A stretch of DNA of 51,195 nt, taken from NCBI GenBank assembly GCA_016930485.1, contig JAFGGP010000011.1, positions 1 to 51,195 on the forward strand, given 5' to 3'. Source of the DNA: Candidatus Omnitrophota bacterium. GTDB lineage: Bacteria > Omnitrophota > Gorgyraeia > JAFGGP01. A program made the position numbers and the translations under genes. The notes below the pieces were generated by a model, which was not told the DNA's origin, made no database searches, and saw only the letters and a list, made by a program, of their open reading frames with translations. Shown here piece after piece: positions 57 to 50,844 of the stretch (position 1 is the first letter of the stretch; each line of letters starts with the position of its first letter).

Positions 57-79
57 CTTTAGCAGGGTTTTGCAACGGT

Positions 80-135
80 CTCAAATTGGAATACAAGAAA
101 CCCCCGGCCTTTAAACCAGCGTCTAACGGGGTAAA
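80..135 (+). repeat. Left-truncated copy of the ACCCCGTTAGA palindromic element (right half only)
   Basis: Ends in GTCTAACGGGGT (121-132), preceded by TCAAATTGGAATACAAGAAA, which resembles the interior of the copies at 47401 and 48163. Confidence 0.5.
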
Positions 136-6672: not shown

Positions 6673-6700
6673 TCTAAACGCTAAACTCGAGACTCTACAC
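6673..6700 (+). repeat. Degenerate 7-nt-period array (TCTAAAC GCTAAAC TCGAGAC TCTACAC)
   Basis: Four consecutive heptads tile the segment; abuts the palindromic element at 6699. Confidence 0.5.
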
Positions 6701-6759
6701 CCCGTTAGAAAAAGAGGGGTTCATAACAAAACAAGGCGGCATCGGTTTTCTAACGGGGT
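6699..6759. repeat. Short palindromic element with perfect 14-bp TIRs ACCCCGTTAGAAAA / TTTTCTAACGGGGT
   Basis: Left arm 6699-6712, right arm 6746-6759; termini shared with the copies at 80-135 and 48163-48266. Confidence 0.8.
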
Positions 6760-6848
6760 AAATAAACTCAAATGCCCCAACCTCAACCATGAACCAGAAC
6801 CCTGTACCGTGCGATAGTGTTGGTTCAGGGCAAAACAAAAAATGGACA

Positions 6849-6952
6849 ACATACGTCATTCCCGCGGAACCTGTCTTCACGAAAGTGGGGAGCGGGAATT
6901 CAAAATCAAGGAATATATAGAGCCCCGGGTCTTCGCCCGAGGATGACATACG
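6849..6952. mobile_element. MITE-like element TCATTCCCGC...CCCGAGGATGA flanked by direct repeat (A)CATACG
   Basis: CATACG at 6850-6855 and 6947-6952; element ends TCATTCC/GGATGA; internal hairpins TTCCCGC/GCGGGAA and CCCCGGG/CCCGAGG. Confidence 0.6.
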
Positions 6953-6957
6953 AGTTT

Positions 6958-7016
6958 GGAGAATTTTGATTTTGGGTTTTGGATTTGTTTAGGGTTTAGG
7001 ATTTCGGATTTCCGAC
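6958..7016 (+). repeat. Degenerate AT-rich heptad-like repeat upstream of the MuiA-like gene
   Basis: GATTTTG GGTTTTG GATTTG TTTAGG GTTTAGG ATTTCGG ATTTCCG. Confidence 0.45.
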
Positions 7017-44204: not shown

Positions 44205-46154
44205 ATGGGCAAGGTTATCGGTATCGATCTAGGGACAACCAACAGTTGTGTTGCGGTCGTTGAAGGAGGGGAGCCGGTTGTCATTGCAAATGCGGAAGGC
44301 AACCGGACGACACCCTCAGTCGTTGCGTTTTCCAAACAGGGAGAGCGGCTGGTGGGGGCACCAGCGAAGCGACAGGCAATCACCAACCCAGAGGGGACGA
44401 TTTTCAGTATAAAGCGTTTTGTTGGTCGCAGGTACTCAGAGGTCAACCATGAAATTAAGTTGGTCCCCTATAAAGTAGTGCAGGCGACAAACGGTGATGC
44501 CCACGTTGAGGCGGACGGCAAGTCATATTCGCCACCGGAGATAAGTGCTATGGTTCTTCAGAAGATGAGACAAACGGCCGAGGATTATCTGGGTGAGAAG
44601 GTAACCCAGGCGGTTGTTACGGTTCCTGCCTACTTTAATGATAGCCAGAGACAGGCAACAAAGGATGCGGGGACAATTGCCGGCCTCGAGGTTTTGCGTA
44701 TTATCAACGAGCCGACCGCCGCAAGTATGGCATACGGATTTGATAAAAAGAAAGAGGAAAAAATCGCTGTCTACGATTTAGGCGGCGGGACTTTTGATAT
44801 CTCGATCCTTGAGATAGGAGAAGGGGTTTTTGAGGTGAAAGCGACCAACGGAGATACCCATCTCGGCGGCGATGATTTCGATCAGAAGATTATAGAGTGG
44901 CTGTGTGACGAATTCAAAAAGGATACGGGGATCAACCTGAGGAACGACAGGATGGCCCTGCAGCGCCTTAAGGAGGCGGCCGAAAAGGCAAAGTGCGAAC
45001 TTTCTTCGTCGTTGACCACGGAGATCAATCTGCCCTTTATTACCGCCGACAGCTCAGGCCCCAAACATCTTGCCGTTCAATTGACCCGGGCAAAACTGGA
45101 ACAACTGGTTGATGATTTAATTGAGAGGACAAAAAAACCGTGTCTGCAGGCACTCAAGGATTCAGGCTTTCAGCCCTCGGATATCGACGAGGTGATTCTG
45201 GTGGGCGGCCAGACACGTATGCCTAAGGTTCAGGAGACGGTGAAGGTGCTTTTCGGAAAGGAACCGCATAAAGGCGTTAACCCCGATGAGGTAGTGGCCG
45301 TAGGGGCGGCGATTCAGGGAGCGGTGCTTTCCGGTGATATCAAGAAGGATATGGTGCTTTTAGATGTGACTCCTCTTTCACTGGGGATCGAGACGCTCGG
45401 CGGCGTGATGACGCGGTTAATCGAAAGGAACACCACGATTCCGACGCGAAAGAGCCAGATCTTTTCCACAGCGGCGGATAATCAAACGGCTGTTTCCATC
45501 CATGTATTACAGGGTGAGCGGGAAATGGCACAGCATAACCGGACGCTGGGCCGTTTTGATCTGGTCGGGATTCCCCCTGCGCCGCGGGGCATCCCTCAAA
45601 TAGAAGTTACCTTTGATATCGATGCCAACGGTATTGTCCATGTCTCTGCAAAGGATATGGCTACCGGCAAGGAGCAGAAGATCAGGATTGAGGCATCGAG
45701 CGGTCTGTCAAAGGAAGAGATTAACAAAATGACCAGGGACGCCGAGGCACATGCGGATGAAGATAAACAAAAGAGGGAGCTTATCGAGGCACGCAACAAC
45801 CTTGACAACATGATCTATGCGGTGGAGAAATCGCTCAAAGAGCATGGTTCAGCACTTGCCGCCGACGAGAAAAAAGATGTTGAGACTGCCGTAGGCGCAG
45901 CAAAGAAGGGGCTGACAAGCGAAGACATTAATGAGATTAAGTCGTTGACGGATCAACTGATGCAGAAATCCCACAAACTTGCCGAGAAGATGTATCAGCA
46001 GGCATCGGCCCAACAGGCCGGGGCAAAGGCTCAGGGTCAGTCGGCAACAGGTGCTTCATCGACGCAGGATGCTGAAGCCGGAGGCGGATCTGCACCAGAA
46101 GAGGATGTGGTTGATGCCGAATATAAGGTAGAGGACGAGGACGATAAGAAATAG
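44205..46154 (+). CDS. dnaK: Chaperone DnaK
   Basis: [25 protein letters not shown] 44205 after AAGGAGG. Confidence 0.98.
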
Positions 46155-46156
46155 CC

Positions 46157-46231
46157 ATGACACATGACGCAGGTCGCATGACACAGGTAGTTAATGTATT
46201 ACTGGGGACATGTGACCTGTGACCGGTGACA
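46157..46231. repeat. Palindromic heptad array, ATGACAC/GTGACCT type, between dnaK and dnaJ
   Basis: ATGACAC ATGACGC AGGTCGC ATGACAC AGGTAGT - 12 nt - GGGGACA TGTGACC TGTGACC GGTGACA. Confidence 0.75.
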
Positions 46232-46245
46232 TGAATAAGGAAGTT

Positions 46246-47391
46246 ATGAAACGCGACTATTACGAGGTGTTAGGCGTTGAAAAAGGTGCTTCCCCGGATG
46301 AGATCAAAAAGGCATACAGAAAACTTGCCTTGCAGTATCATCCCGACAGGAACAAGGATAACAAAGAGGCCGAGGATAAATTTAAAGAGATCTCAGAGGC
46401 GTATGAAGTACTGAGCAATCCCCAAAAAAGAAGCCAGTACGACCAGTTTGGTCATGCAATGGGTGATTATGCCCAGTACGGTGCCGGTAGTCCCTTTGGC
46501 GGCTTCGGTGATTTTGATATATCGGATGCCTTTAGAATATTCCAGGAGGCCTTTGGCGGTTCGGGTGGGATATTTGACGGCTTTGATATCTTCGGCGGCT
46601 CCACAGCGCGGTCACAACGCGGCTTTAACGGTTCCAATCTGGAGTATGTCATTGAGATTTCACTTTCTGACGCGGCTACCGGCGTAAAGAAAGAGATCGA
46701 GGTGCCGCGTTTAGAGGCATGCGCCCGCTGTAACGGCAGTGGTTCAGAGCCGGGAACAAAAAAAGAGATGTGCCCACACTGCAGGGGGGCAGGCCGTACG
46801 AGGACATCGTTCGGTATTTTTGATATCTCTATCTCTGTTTGTTCTGCCTGTAACGGCACCGGCGAGGTTGTCAAGAATCCCTGCAGGGAATGCAAGGGAA
46901 AAGGACGGATTCAGCGTAAAAGAAAGCTTACTATCAAGGTTCCTGCGGGGATTCATTCCGGACAGCATCTGCGTTTAAACGGCGAAGGAGAGGGTGCGGT
47001 AGGTGGTGGCAGGGCCGGCGACCTCTACATATTGGTGAAAGTGGCCCAGCACGAGCTCTTTGTCAGACGCGACGATAATCTGTTCTGTGAGGTGCCGGTT
47101 ACCATTACACAGGCGGCCCTCGGCGCCGAGGTGAGTGTGCCGACACTTTTAGACGGAAATGTTAAGGTAAAAGTGCCTGCCGGTACCCAGAGTGGAAGGC
47201 TGTTGCGGTTGCGCGGAAAGGGAATGCCGCGTTTACAGGGGTATGGCAACGGCGATCAATTGATTCGCGTAGCAGTAGAGGTGCCCGCTTCGTTGACCGC
47301 TGAACAGAAGCGTCTGCTCAGGGAGTTTGAGCAGTTGAGTAATACAAAGACGTATCCTGCACAGAAGTCTTTTTCAGAAAAAATAAGGTAA
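46246..47391 (+). CDS. dnaJ: Chaperone DnaJ
   Basis: [36 protein letters not shown]; four CxxCxGxG-type zinc motifs; ATG 46246 preferred (AAGGAAG SD). Confidence 0.96.
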
Positions 47392-47400
47392 TTATCGAAG

Positions 47401-47471
47401 CCGCTATAAACCCGGAAAGCCCTGCGTTTCAAAACGCCGGTTCATATGCTCTTGAATTGGAACAAAAAAAG
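47401..47471 (+). repeat. Diverged copy of the palindromic element (left end and core)
   Basis: CCGCTATAAACCCGGAAAGCCCTGCGTTTCAAAACGCCGGTTCATATGCTCTTGAATTGGAACAAAAAAAG aligns without gaps to 48163-48232, about two-thirds identical by eye. Confidence 0.6.
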
Positions 47472-47476
47472 CGACA

Positions 47477-47503
47477 GAACGTGCCAACGTTGTTGGCGCG
47501 TTC
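47477..47503. other. Strong stem-loop downstream of dnaJ
   Basis: GAACGTGCCAAC-GTT-GTTGGCGCGTTC: 12-bp stem with one T-G pair. Confidence 0.6.
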
Positions 47504-47656
47504 AGAACGTTCTTTATGAGGTGCTTTGCTCCTGTAGTATTGCGCATGAGCGTCTTTGATGCTGGTGATGTCTATTGTTATAGCTTCCTAGGCAGCAAGA
47601 AGGCCCCGGTCTTTCAACTGGCATCTCATGGGGTTTGTATAAAACAAGGTTACGCT

Positions 47657-47938
47657 ATGCCGACATATGAATATGAATGTAGACAGTGCGGTCAAAAGTT
47701 CGAGGTATTCCAAAAAATGACCGATAAGCCACTTGTTACCTGCCAAAAATGTCAGGGTGGCCCGGTGATGCGGTTGATCGGGACCGGAAGCGGCATCATC
47801 TTTAAAGGCACCGGTTTTTATGAAACGGATTACCGTCGTTCTTCTTATAAAGAGGCGGAGAAAAAGGAAAAGGAGACGGCTAACGACACATCTTCAAAGG
47901 AGACATCTCCAAAGAAGACGTCTGCGGAATCTTCTTAA
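47657..47938 (+). CDS. FmdB-family zinc ribbon protein
   Basis: MPTYEYECRQCGQKFEVFQKMTDKPLVTCQKCQGGPVMRLIGTGSGIIFKGTGFYETDYR. Confidence 0.9.
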   Translation: MPTYEYECRQCGQKFEVFQKMTDKPLVTCQKCQGGPVMRLIGTGSGIIFKGTGFYETDYRRSSYKEAEKKEKETANDTSSKETSPKKTSAESS

Positions 47939-47978
47939 CGTGCCGAATCCCGGGCAACCGTAACGAACAGGACTTTTC

Positions 47979-48503
47979 GTGACCAGAATTATCAAACTGT
48001 GGATTCCCACGGTTATGTGGGCCGTAGTAATTTTTATTTTCTCTTCTCTTTCCGGCGTTCCCGACCCCATAGAGAATCTTCCTCACTTCGATAAATGTTT
48101 TCACGTCGCCGAGTTCACTATTTTTGGTTTCTTACTGTGCCGCTCTCTTACAGGGACGTTTACCCCATTAGACCCAGAAAGCCCCGCTTTTCGAAGGGGG
48201 GGTGAATGCACTGTTGGATTGAAACAAAAAAGAAGGTCCTGTCCGAGAGATCGGGGTCTAACGGGGTTTACTGTATCGGCGTCTTCTGTTATGATAGTGA
48301 TGACCATATTCTGCGGTGCGGTGTATGGCGTACTCGATGAGGCACACCAGCTTTTTGTCGAAAACCGGCATTGGGAGATAACCGATATCATAGCCGATAG
48401 CCTGGGTAGCGCCATCGGTTCTTTTATTTTTGTGCAGCGCGCCGCTATTATTCATGCGCTCGGTTCATTTTTTCACAAGAAAGGTGCCTTATGGCAGAAG
48501 TAA
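47979..48503 (+). CDS. VanZ-like family membrane protein carrying an in-frame palindromic-element insertion
   Basis: HFDKCFHVAEFTIFGFLLCRSL ... AVYGVLDEAHQLFVENRHWEITDIIADSLGSAIG; hydrophilic insert TPLDPESPAFRRGGECTVGLKQKRRSCPRDRGLTGF is encoded by the repeat. Confidence 0.85.
   Translation: MTRIIKLWIPTVMWAVVIFIFSSLSGVPDPIENLPHFDKCFHVAEFTIFGFLLCRSLTGTFTPLDPESPAFRRGGECTVGLKQKRRSCPRDRGLTGFTVSASSVMIVMTIFCGAVYGVLDEAHQLFVENRHWEITDIIADSLGSAIGSFIFVQRAAIIHALGSFFHKKGALWQK
48159..48270. mobile_element. Palindromic element CCCCATTAGACCC...GGGTCTAACGGGG (48163-48266) flanked by TTTA direct repeats, inside the VanZ-like CDS
   Basis: TTTA at 48159-48162 and 48267-48270; inverted termini; net insertion 108 bp = 36 codons. 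Confidence 0.8.
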
Positions 48504-49822
48504 GACCATTTCGCGGCATTCGGTATAATTCCGAACGAGTTCATATTGAAACGGTTGTGGCACCTCCGTACGATGTGATTAATAGCAATCAACGCGACGC
48601 ACTCTACGAAAGGAGCCCCTTCAATATTGTTCGTCTTATCCTCAATAAGGAAGAAGCAGGGGATATCGCCCCCTATCAGAAGCACGCTAGGGCTGCTTTG
48701 TGTTTAAAACAATGGCTCAACGAAGGCATCCTGATTCAGGATAAGCTTCCCAGCATCTATCTTTATAACAAGGAATTTGACTATAACAATAAGAGGGTGA
48801 CCCGTCTGGGCTTTATGGTGCGATTGCGACTCGAAGACGATGAAAAGGGGATCGTTTATCCGCATGAAAATACCCTGGCAAAACCCAAGGAAGACCGCTT
48901 GATGCTGACACGGATGGTAAAGGCGAATATGAGCCCGATCTTTGGTTTCTACGAACCGAGCGACCAGTCTCTGGAGGAACATCTGCGCGCGTATGCCCGC
49001 ACAAATCAGCCCGTGGCGGATATGCATACAGAACCGGATGATGTGCGACATCGTCTCTGGCTTATTCCGGAGGGCGAACTTACCCGGGCGGTTGTTAAGG
49101 AACTCGAACATAAAAAGATCTTTATAGCCGATGGCCATCATCGTTATGAGGTGGCCCGCATGTTCCGGGATGAGATGAGAAAGACGCTGGGAAGACCCAC
49201 GCCGCAGGATTTCGATTATATCTTGTGCTATCTGACCCCTCTCAGGGAAGAGTCGGTTGCTATTTTGCCGATTTACCGTTTGGTAATGGGGGCCGAGTGC
49301 GGGGATACTCAACAGTTCGTAGGGCGTCTGGAGAAATTGTTTACGGTTACAAAAATGGATTCTCTCCAGCACTGTCTTGCTGCACTGGAGACCCATCAGG
49401 AGCATTCGTATGTGTACGGGGTGTACCTCCCGCAGGATGCCTGTTATTTTCTCTTTCCTAAAGATGTTGTCTTTTTGCAAAAACGGCTGACCGAAAAAAA
49501 AGTTCCTGAGGCGCTGAAGGTGCTTGGCGTCACGGTGCTCCATAGAATCATTTTCGAGGAGTTGCTGGAAACCGGCAGCGACCCCTCGCTGCATTCGCTC
49601 CAGATAAGTTATACCCGGGATTTGATGCACGCAAAGACCCTGGTCGATATCCATGATCAACAGGCCCTCTTTTTAATAAATCCGACCCGTGCAGAGCATG
49701 TCAAGGAGGTTGCCTCTCAGGGGGAAAAGATGCCCCCCAAAAGCACCTATTTTTATCCTAAGGCGTTGAGCGGCCTGGTCATTAACCGGTTTGACTCCCT
49801 ACAGGACGTTGCTACTGTGTAA
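48491..49822 (+). CDS. DUF1015 family protein
   Basis: AEVRPFRGIRYNSERVHIETVVAPPYDVI; FIADGHHRYEVARMFRDEM. Confidence 0.92.
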   Translation: MAEVRPFRGIRYNSERVHIETVVAPPYDVINSNQRDALYERSPFNIVRLILNKEEAGDIAPYQKHARAALCLKQWLNEGILIQDKLPSIYLYNKEFDYNNKRVTRLGFMVRLRLEDDEKGIVYPHENTLAKPKEDRLMLTRMVKANMSPIFGFYEPSDQSLEEHLRAYARTNQPVADMHTEPDDVRHRLWLIPEGELTRAVVKELEHKKIFIADGHHRYEVARMFRDEMRKTLGRPTPQDFDYILCYLTPLREESVAILPIYRLVMGAECGDTQQFVGRLEKLFTVTKMDSLQHCLAALETHQEHSYVYGVYLPQDACYFLFPKDVVFLQKRLTEKKVPEALKVLGVTVLHRIIFEELLETGSDPSLHSLQISYTRDLMHAKTLVDIHDQQALFLINPTRAEHVKEVASQGEKMPPKSTYFYPKALSGLVINRFDSLQDVATV

Positions 49823-49885
49823 TAGCCCTTTTTCCGTAACCCCTATCTCTATATCATGATAGATATACTCCCCTATTAAACACAA

Positions 49886-49914
49886 TTGACCTGGTAGTAT
49901 TACTATGGTATCAT
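49886..49914 (+). promoter_or_regulatory. Promoter upstream of accD with a palindrome in the spacer
   Basis: TTGACC (49886-49891) - 17 nt - TATCAT (49909-49914); TAGTATTACTA palindrome at 49895-49905. Confidence 0.6.
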
Positions 49915-49962
49915 ACATTCTTTTAGAAGCCCTGTTTTGTCGGTCAGGGGCGTGGGGTCTCT

Positions 49963-50844
49963 ATGGCGCTATTCAAACCGGATAAAGTAGGGAAGTCGCT
50001 GCGCAAGAAAGGCATTCCAGAGGGGCTTTGGACGAAGTGCGCCGAATGCGGCCATATTATTTTTAATAAGGCATTAGAAGAAAATCTGAAGGTATGCCCC
50101 AAGTGTGGCTATCACTTTACGCTGGGCGCCCCTGAGAGAATAGAGAGTCTTCTCGATAAGAAAACCTTCAGCGAAATCGATATAGCCTTGACCTCTCTGG
50201 ATCCTCTGGAGTTCAAGGGGCCCAAGACATATAAGGAGAAGCTGGTTCAGGATAAGAAAAAAACCGGTCTTACAGAGGCCTGCGTTACCGGCTACGGGAA
50301 GATTGATTCCAGAGACGTTCTTTTTGGGGTGACCGACTCGCGGTTTATTATGGGGTCAATGGGGTCGGTGGTTGGGGAAAAGCTGACCCGGCTTTTTGAA
50401 AAGGCCCTGGCCGAGACTCTGCCGGTGATTATCGTGTCGGGTTCTGGCGGTGGGGCGAGGATGTATGAAGGTATGCTCAGCCTGATGCAGATGGCGAAAA
50501 CAAGTGCGGCATGTTCGCGCTTGAAGGAGGCAGGGGGACTTTTTATTTCTGTATTGACCGATCCGACTATGGCGGGTGTCATGGCGAGTTATGCGTCTTT
50601 GGGGGATGTGGTTATAGCAGAGCCGAGGGCATTGATCGGTTTTACGGGGCCGCGCGTTATCGAACAGACCATTCGTCAGAAACTACCCGAGGGATTCCAG
50701 AAGTCAGAATTTTTGCTTGAGCACGGCCTGATTGATATAGTTGTACATCGAAAAGAACTCAAGAGTACACTTTCGCATGTATTAGGATATCTGTGCCCTC
50801 ATGCCGGGAGAAAGAAGAGAAAAAATGGCTCAGGTAACGCTTAA
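49963..50844 (+). CDS. accD: Acetyl-CoA carboxylase carboxyltransferase beta subunit
   Basis: [31 protein letters not shown] zinc ribbon; [45 protein letters not shown]. Confidence 0.97.

Follow-up and report, generated by a model that had tools for sequence, protein, structure and literature searches.

A palindromic element flanked by TTTA and inserted in frame in a VanZ-family gene and other protein genes of an Omnitrophota bacterium

The window analysed here is the whole stretch of 51,195 nucleotides of contig JAFGGP010000011.1 from a Candidatus Omnitrophota bacterium (assembly GCA_016930485.1). It contains a VanZ-family gene that carries a palindromic DNA element, and related copies are found elsewhere in the same stretch. 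The features are the following.

47979 to 48503, plus strand: VanZ-family gene with the insert (PF04892; orthologue alignment; AlphaFold2 model)
48159 to 48162, plus strand: TTTA, left target-site copy, with TTT as a Phe codon
48163 to 48266, plus strand: palindromic mobile element of 104 bp, with termini CCCCATTAGACCC / GGGTCTAACGGGG
48267 to 48270, plus strand: TTTA, right target-site copy, in the same orientation as the left copy
47400 to 47633, plus strand: degenerate intergenic copy of about 234 bp, from a subfamily of about 231 bp, between dnaJ and a zinc-ribbon gene
6700 to 6758, minus strand: 59-bp copy of an intergenic subfamily of about 61 bp, found by pattern search and end pairing
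62 to 131, plus strand: decayed copy of the 104-bp type (104-type), with right end GTCTAACGGGG (121-131) and an unrecognisable left end

The open frame of the VanZ-family gene (Pfam match PF04892, E=1.6e-11) is unbroken from the GTG at 47979 to the stop at 48503, the element included. The left end CCCCATTAGACCC (48163-48175) and the right end GGGTCTAACGGGG (48254-48266) are inverted relative to each other with one mismatch (A/G). The 104 bp together with one TTTA give a net addition of 108 bp, or 36 codons, and the peptide TPLDPESPAFRRGGECTVGLKQKRRSCPRDRGLTGF encoded by the element forms residues 62-97 of the protein. RNA folding of the element gives z = -2.9 against shuffles, none of which was equally stable. 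A sequence-only reading made earlier had described this palindrome with its inverted termini and direct TTTA flanks, as well as the addition of 36 codons in frame and without a stop; both claims held, and the coordinates were exact.

VanZ matches were found in 34 of the 99 relatives searched, with the aligned residues falling on either side of the insert. An explicit alignment shows that residues 62-97 are absent from all 29 orthologues fetched; column occupancy is 8% over the insert and 85% elsewhere. In the AlphaFold2 model, built with these 29 orthologues as the alignment, the insert forms a loop that connects helix 37-61 to helix 99-124, with block pLDDT values of about 50-68, while the rest of the protein is mostly at 88-98. 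The model thus predicts that the loop is disordered and the rest of the fold intact. The insert was gained in this lineage. An ancestral VanZ loop that is palindromic by accident would be consistent with the intact frame; however, the absence of the loop from 29/29 orthologues and the presence of the same DNA in other genes all but exclude it.

The VanZ palindrome is not a chance occurrence, since a BLAST search with a 118-bp query finds 15 further places in the genome (1.9 Mb, 57 contigs) with E-values from 5e-27 to 3e-5. Pattern searches, on which the copy counts also rest, gave 162 matches to the 14-base end when up to two mismatches were allowed, compared with 68 for the reversed control; at least 46 matches are exact. 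The sequence-only reading would have been refuted by orthologous VanZ proteins with the same loop but without the palindrome, or by the lack of other genomic copies sharing the termini; neither was observed. The consensus termini of the genome-wide family are CCCCRTTAGA/TCTAAYGGGG. When the ends are paired, many pairs appear beyond the 15 BLAST relatives, and the copies fall into three main kinds: the 104-type, an intergenic type of 61 bp, and a TPLE-type of other lengths. The subfamily of about 231 bp corresponds to the 104-bp form with about 130 bp more inside.

That reading had also noted related copies within the window, which is correct, although their boundaries required revision. The copy placed at 47401-47471 is the left part of the longer degenerate copy 47400-47633, which was aligned with C44:59562-59792 and C44:55829-56074 and has its right terminus TCTCATGGGG at 47624-47633. 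The copy placed at 6699-6759 spans 6700-6758 and belongs to the different, intergenic subfamily of about 61 bp; its TTTA is found at 6759-6762 on the minus strand and the opposite flank is degenerate. A fourth, decayed copy ends at 131. The called start of the zinc-ribbon ORF (47516-47938), the ATG at 47516, falls inside the decayed 231-bp element, and the true start of this gene is likely to be the ATG near 47658 (MPTYEYECRQCG). The intergenic stretch 6860-6960, after the 6700-6758 copy, resembles another dispersed intergenic repeat (gagccccgggtcttcgcccgaggatgacata). A second set of short hairpins in this genome (C52:7057-7096, C21:5616-5651, C9:27337-27374 and C11:8680-8725) ends in CCCCGTGAGA/TCTCACGGGG, with TTTA/TAAA-like flanks that are inverted in most cases; these could be a sister family or terminators.

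The VanZ gene is one of six unrelated genes in this genome that contain a 104-type copy, in the same orientation and the same frame in all. The other five are as follows.

C19:9712, in frame: gene of a radical-SAM protein
C19:19602, in frame: gene of a YfhO-like membrane protein
C25:121550, in frame: MurB gene, identified by PDB homologues
C27:301674, in frame: gene of a protein without assignment
C51:31901, in frame: gene of a SpoIID-domain protein

TPLE-type copies are located inside the genes of a PMT_2 protein, a Dus protein and a prepilin, and one further in-gene copy with a different interior is located in a protein without assignment. The in-gene copies of this genome read F-TPL(D/E)...LTG-F or nearly so. 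The net length of the 104-type is divisible by three in all six in-gene copies and in none of the nine intergenic copies, most of which contain stops. These in-frame copies in unrelated proteins support the earlier proposal of a protein-invading repeat in an unrelated lineage.

The frame was assessed further with 175 elements from this genome, its relatives and other phyla, scoring long ORFs, in any frame, that reach both sides of the element. With ORFs of at least 100 codons on both sides, the same frame continues through 23 of 28 elements and meets no stop. When ORFs of at least 60 codons on both sides are required, the net length is a multiple of three in 37/45 cases, compared with 56/130 for the others (Fisher p=4.6e-6). 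Elements inside genes keep the reading frame. Insertions are tolerated in the sense readings FTPL...LTGF or YPVR...SNGV and in the antisense reading NPVR...SNGV. The ends are free of stops in FTPL(D/E)...LTGF and in the (Y/N)PVR...SNGV frames. A copy with a net length divisible by three therefore adds a hydrophilic peptide and does not destroy the host protein.

One could suppose that the peptide was recruited, giving VanZ and the other hosts a function that is kept by selection. A similar sequence in six proteins, and the open frame of all copies in coding sequences, speak for this. However, the third codon positions of the six in-gene 104-type copies are not more variable than the others (0.182, compared with 0.228 and 0.231 at positions 1 and 2), the hosts are unrelated, the interiors differ freely between genomes, and the loop in VanZ is disordered in the AlphaFold2 model. 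Recruitment is therefore unlikely. The inserted peptide shows no amino-acid selection, and the shared entity is the DNA, while the frame is maintained by selection on the host protein.

Prepilin genes, which the sequence-only reading could not have seen in its window, are recurrent hosts of the element. In all of them the insertion separates the leader glycine, or the residue that replaces it, from the FTLIEL helix, since TTTAC codes for Phe-Thr at this junction. The right end, CTA ACG GGG followed by TTT, reads Leu-Thr-Gly^Phe and recreates Gly^Phe-Thr-Leu-Ile-Glu. The prepilin-peptidase motif is thereby kept (glycine at position -1, Glu at +5), and the whole insert consequently falls in the leader. 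It would be discarded with the cleaved leader of the pilin; this is inferred from sequence alone, and cleavage has not been shown. The right end is found at the cleavage site in 5 of the 22 N_methyl-motif matches of this genome (two exact, three with one mismatch) and, by our own count, in 8/27 in the relative G249. Of the 384 genomes of the phylum, 8 contain the exact DNA pattern for LTGFTLIEL, with 10 occurrences in total. One prepilin leader of G249 (L452, contig C40) contains two elements in series and reads GFTPLE...SLPGFTPLE...LLSG^FTLLEM, with each element ending in a Gly-Phe-Thr junction.

Neighbouring prepilin paralogues allow empty and filled sites to be compared directly. At locus L176 the empty gene reads AAAAAATCA-TTTACG (AAATCA-TTTACG), and the filled genes read AAAAAATCATTTA-[53 bp]-TTTACG or TTTACC, with two identical 53-bp copies; the filled site is also given as AAATCATTTA[53 bp]TTTACG. 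The paralogues at L151 and L188 have the same pattern. One TTTA is present when the site is empty and two when it is filled (L176, L151). The empty and filled sites thus differ by the element plus one TTTA.

The TTTA flanks of 146 copies are direct, and those of 5 are inverted. The base on the 3' side of the right TTTA is C in 62% and T in 28%, that is, C or T in 90%. Most of the loci in these counts were selected by a pattern containing TTTA, and only the following base is an unbiased result. When 15 copies of the 104-type are aligned, the interior has the same orientation relative to TTTA in all of them. The right TTTA may be a duplicated target or may be borne by the element; the data do not separate the two. 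The minimal copies are only 28-31 bp long.

The family extends well beyond this genome, which was also outside the view of the sequence-only reading. The exact 14-base left end is present in 115 of 384 Omnitrophota genomes, patchily, with 1 to 55 occurrences per positive genome, while the reversed control pattern in the same genomes is near zero. The exact two-ended pattern was found in at least 118 stretches of GTDB representative genomes. According to the record titles, these come from Omnitrophota and about ten other phyla: Nitrospirota, Deltaproteobacteria/Desulfobacterota, Nitrospinota, Planctomycetota, Elusimicrobia, many Patescibacteria groups, WOR-3, NPL-UPA2, Aerophobetes and Cloacimonadota, together with one Aenigmatarchaeota contig. 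Misbinning is possible for the records that are single short contigs, among them the archaeal one, but is less easily invoked for the contigs of 74-425 kb from Elusimicrobia, NPL-UPA2 and Phycisphaerales. Between genomes the interiors vary freely, while the ten-base ends and TTTA flanks are constant.

Viral contigs do not contain the full element pattern, and their relaxed matches are mostly terminator-like hairpins with other flanks; phage as a vehicle was rejected on this basis. The search of plasmids gave weak matches only, two of which are pilin-gene sequence. Rare hairpins in the viral contigs L490, L492, L501 and L482 have identical ten-base ends and direct TTCA or CTCA flanks, and may represent a related element with a different target.

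The repeat could also be considered a chromosomal signal and not a mobile element: a DNA-uptake sequence, a terminator, or an integron-like recombination site. The hairpins have conserved 10-mers, the intergenic copies could serve as terminators, and GTTAGAC/GTCTAAC recalls the core sites of attC through the resemblance GTTRRRY/RYYYAAC. However, the copies are discrete insertions with empty sites; they number 0 to 55 per genome with a patchy distribution, where hundreds would be expected of an uptake signal; and the region 46000-50000 has no Rfam match at E<=1. The attC-like core boxes of the element are in inverted order relative to attC. The attC-like and uptake-sequence readings were rejected on box order and copy number, and a chromosomal signal of any of these kinds is very unlikely.

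Among known systems, the closest in behaviour are the Rickettsia palindromic elements (RPE; Ogata et al. 2000, 2002; PMC10969869, PMC3733652), which likewise form several palindromic subfamilies per genome, each coding for a conserved peptide, and interrupt unrelated functional proteins without loss of frame. The present family meets this description, with one repeat in frame in several unrelated protein genes and with hosts that are otherwise normal without the insert, as in the VanZ orthologues and prepilin paralogues. RPEs have been reported from Rickettsia, and RPE-4 and RPE-6 end in CGTC (PMC3733652). A shared end of this kind, which would indicate descent, is not present here; the comparison was made by ends, without direct alignment to RPE sequences. 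Unlike RPEs, the family ends in CCCCRTTAGA/TCTAAYGGGG between two TTTA copies, is distributed over many phyla, is tolerated in three readings, one of them antisense, and recurs at prepilin cleavage sites. It works like RPE, but by its ends it is an unrelated family. The comparison with RPE drawn earlier thus held for behaviour and not for the sequence family. Neither the end sequence nor the peptide motifs appear in any paper in the literature searched, subscription papers and preprints being mostly outside the search.

REP elements and REPINs, which are moved by TnpA-REP (RAYT) and are in some cases intragenic (PMC3733652, PMC8266576, PMC6006769), also take the form of short hairpins (28-60 bp) whose foot bears a fixed tetranucleotide, and in-frame intragenic copies are known. 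The REP tag is GTAG, or GTGG/CGTC, at one foot (PMC8266576, PMC6006769), while TTTA is found here at both feet. REPs are described as species-specific in sequence (PMC6006769), unlike the present element, whose ends are identical across phyla. An adjoining or flanked tnpA-REP (Y1) gene, expected of REPs, was not found either among the Y1 genes that were read, with 0 of about 120 Y1 loci flanked by these ends.

The non-autonomous derivatives of IS200/IS605-type elements (HUH Y1) have folded ends, a short T-rich target beside the left end, a fixed orientation and no long target duplication. Insertion 3' of a fixed short target in a fixed orientation is met by the present family, with the reservation that TTTA itself is partly ascertained, but no autonomous relative with TnpA between these ends was found. 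The family also differs in its single-hairpin copies of 28-31 bp and in lacking a guide tetranucleotide between target and hairpin foot. The TTTA directly abuts the foot with zero nucleotides between, and for this reason the guide region of IS200/IS605 is not visible.

These observations allow us to propose a non-autonomous palindromic mobile DNA element that is inserted at TTTA, usually followed by C or T, in an orientation fixed to the tetranucleotide, leaving TTTA on both sides. Some enzyme would move it in trans. Present or past movement of the element, at TTTA and in a fixed orientation, is shown, as is the compatibility of its ends with open frames; the overall reading, including benign in-frame ends and mobilisation in trans, is likely. 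The hairpin, the minimal size of 28-31 bp and the way the element is oriented to a short, asymmetric target favour a route through folded single-stranded DNA. The enzymes of IS200/IS605 bind to hairpins, and their cut falls at a tetranucleotide next to the left end (PMC6006769). Whether an enzyme of the HUH/Y1 kind is the mover could be answered either way, and no mobilising gene was found. Under single-strand transposition, a GGGGTTTA-CCCC junction would be the expected mark of a circular intermediate.

The second possibility, which ranks below the HUH/Y1 route, is a classical MITE, with a DDE transposase recognising the terminal inverted repeats and making a staggered cut at TTTA, so that 4 bp are duplicated. 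Terminal inverted repeats with direct TTTA flanks, whether duplicated or element-borne, and the absence of coding capacity for a transposase agree with this, and palindromic MITEs are common. However, near-identical ends at an asymmetric TTTA predict a random orientation of the interior, while 15/15 aligned 104-type copies are alike. The minimal copies are very short for a two-ended synapsis and far below the typical MITE length of 70-300 bp (PMC3733652), and no matching or parent IS was found among the loci examined, without a systematic DDE search. A DDE route remains possible.

The search for a mobiliser was directed mainly at Y1 transposases. None of the roughly 120 Y1 loci in element-bearing genomes, covering element-rich relatives and other phyla, is flanked by these ends, and a linked Y1 TnpA was rejected as the mobiliser; the survey is incomplete, as some Y1 genes in the genomes examined were left unread. 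The element-rich relative G024 gave no Y1 match. Long autonomous copies were excluded among the loci examined, as no end pairs 260-4000 bp apart enclose a gene; a 281-bp end pair in L196 is at most a long non-coding copy. Composite elements were rejected too, since element pairs 250-2500 bp apart enclose ordinary genes. The strand bias expected of lagging-strand insertion is weak, 15/21 in one closed genome by our own count, and a pooled test by local skew gave no bias but is confounded by gene strand.

This genome has two Y1 genes, at C44:52687-53031 and C55:1243-1500, each flanked on both sides by its own palindrome (TAGGTCACATTTAAGTGTGACCTA and TTAACCTACGAGGTTCAACCTCGTAGGTTAA, respectively); this layout is RAYT-like and unrelated to the element studied here. 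A copy of about 62 bp lies inside an IS200-type tnpA gene in a Deltaproteobacteria MAG (L414:390-500), where tnpA is the victim of the insertion and not its partner. One other copy is located 420 bp from a tnpA gene.

A bolder reading may also be considered. It would hold that a single family keeps the same ends in a dozen phyla, Patescibacteria and possibly an archaeon among them; that its termini are benign to proteins, with no stops in three of six readings, and its pilin insert is discarded at the protein level; and that it spread by an undescribed, trans-acting and probably single-strand mechanism. Taken jointly, we would lean slightly against all of these parts being correct. Translation of the inserted peptide has not been shown.

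Protein-coding palindromes are known mainly from Rickettsia, and their movement and their tolerance by proteins are still puzzling. The present family provides a large comparative sample outside Rickettsia, with both empty and filled sites, and offers a natural experiment in which insertions at a cleaved leader can be compared with those in a mature protein. It also gives a warning for annotation: the FTPLE...LTGF and NPVR...SNGV stretches in proteins of candidate phyla are transposed DNA and not domains. The mobiliser, if identified, could reveal a new transposition system.
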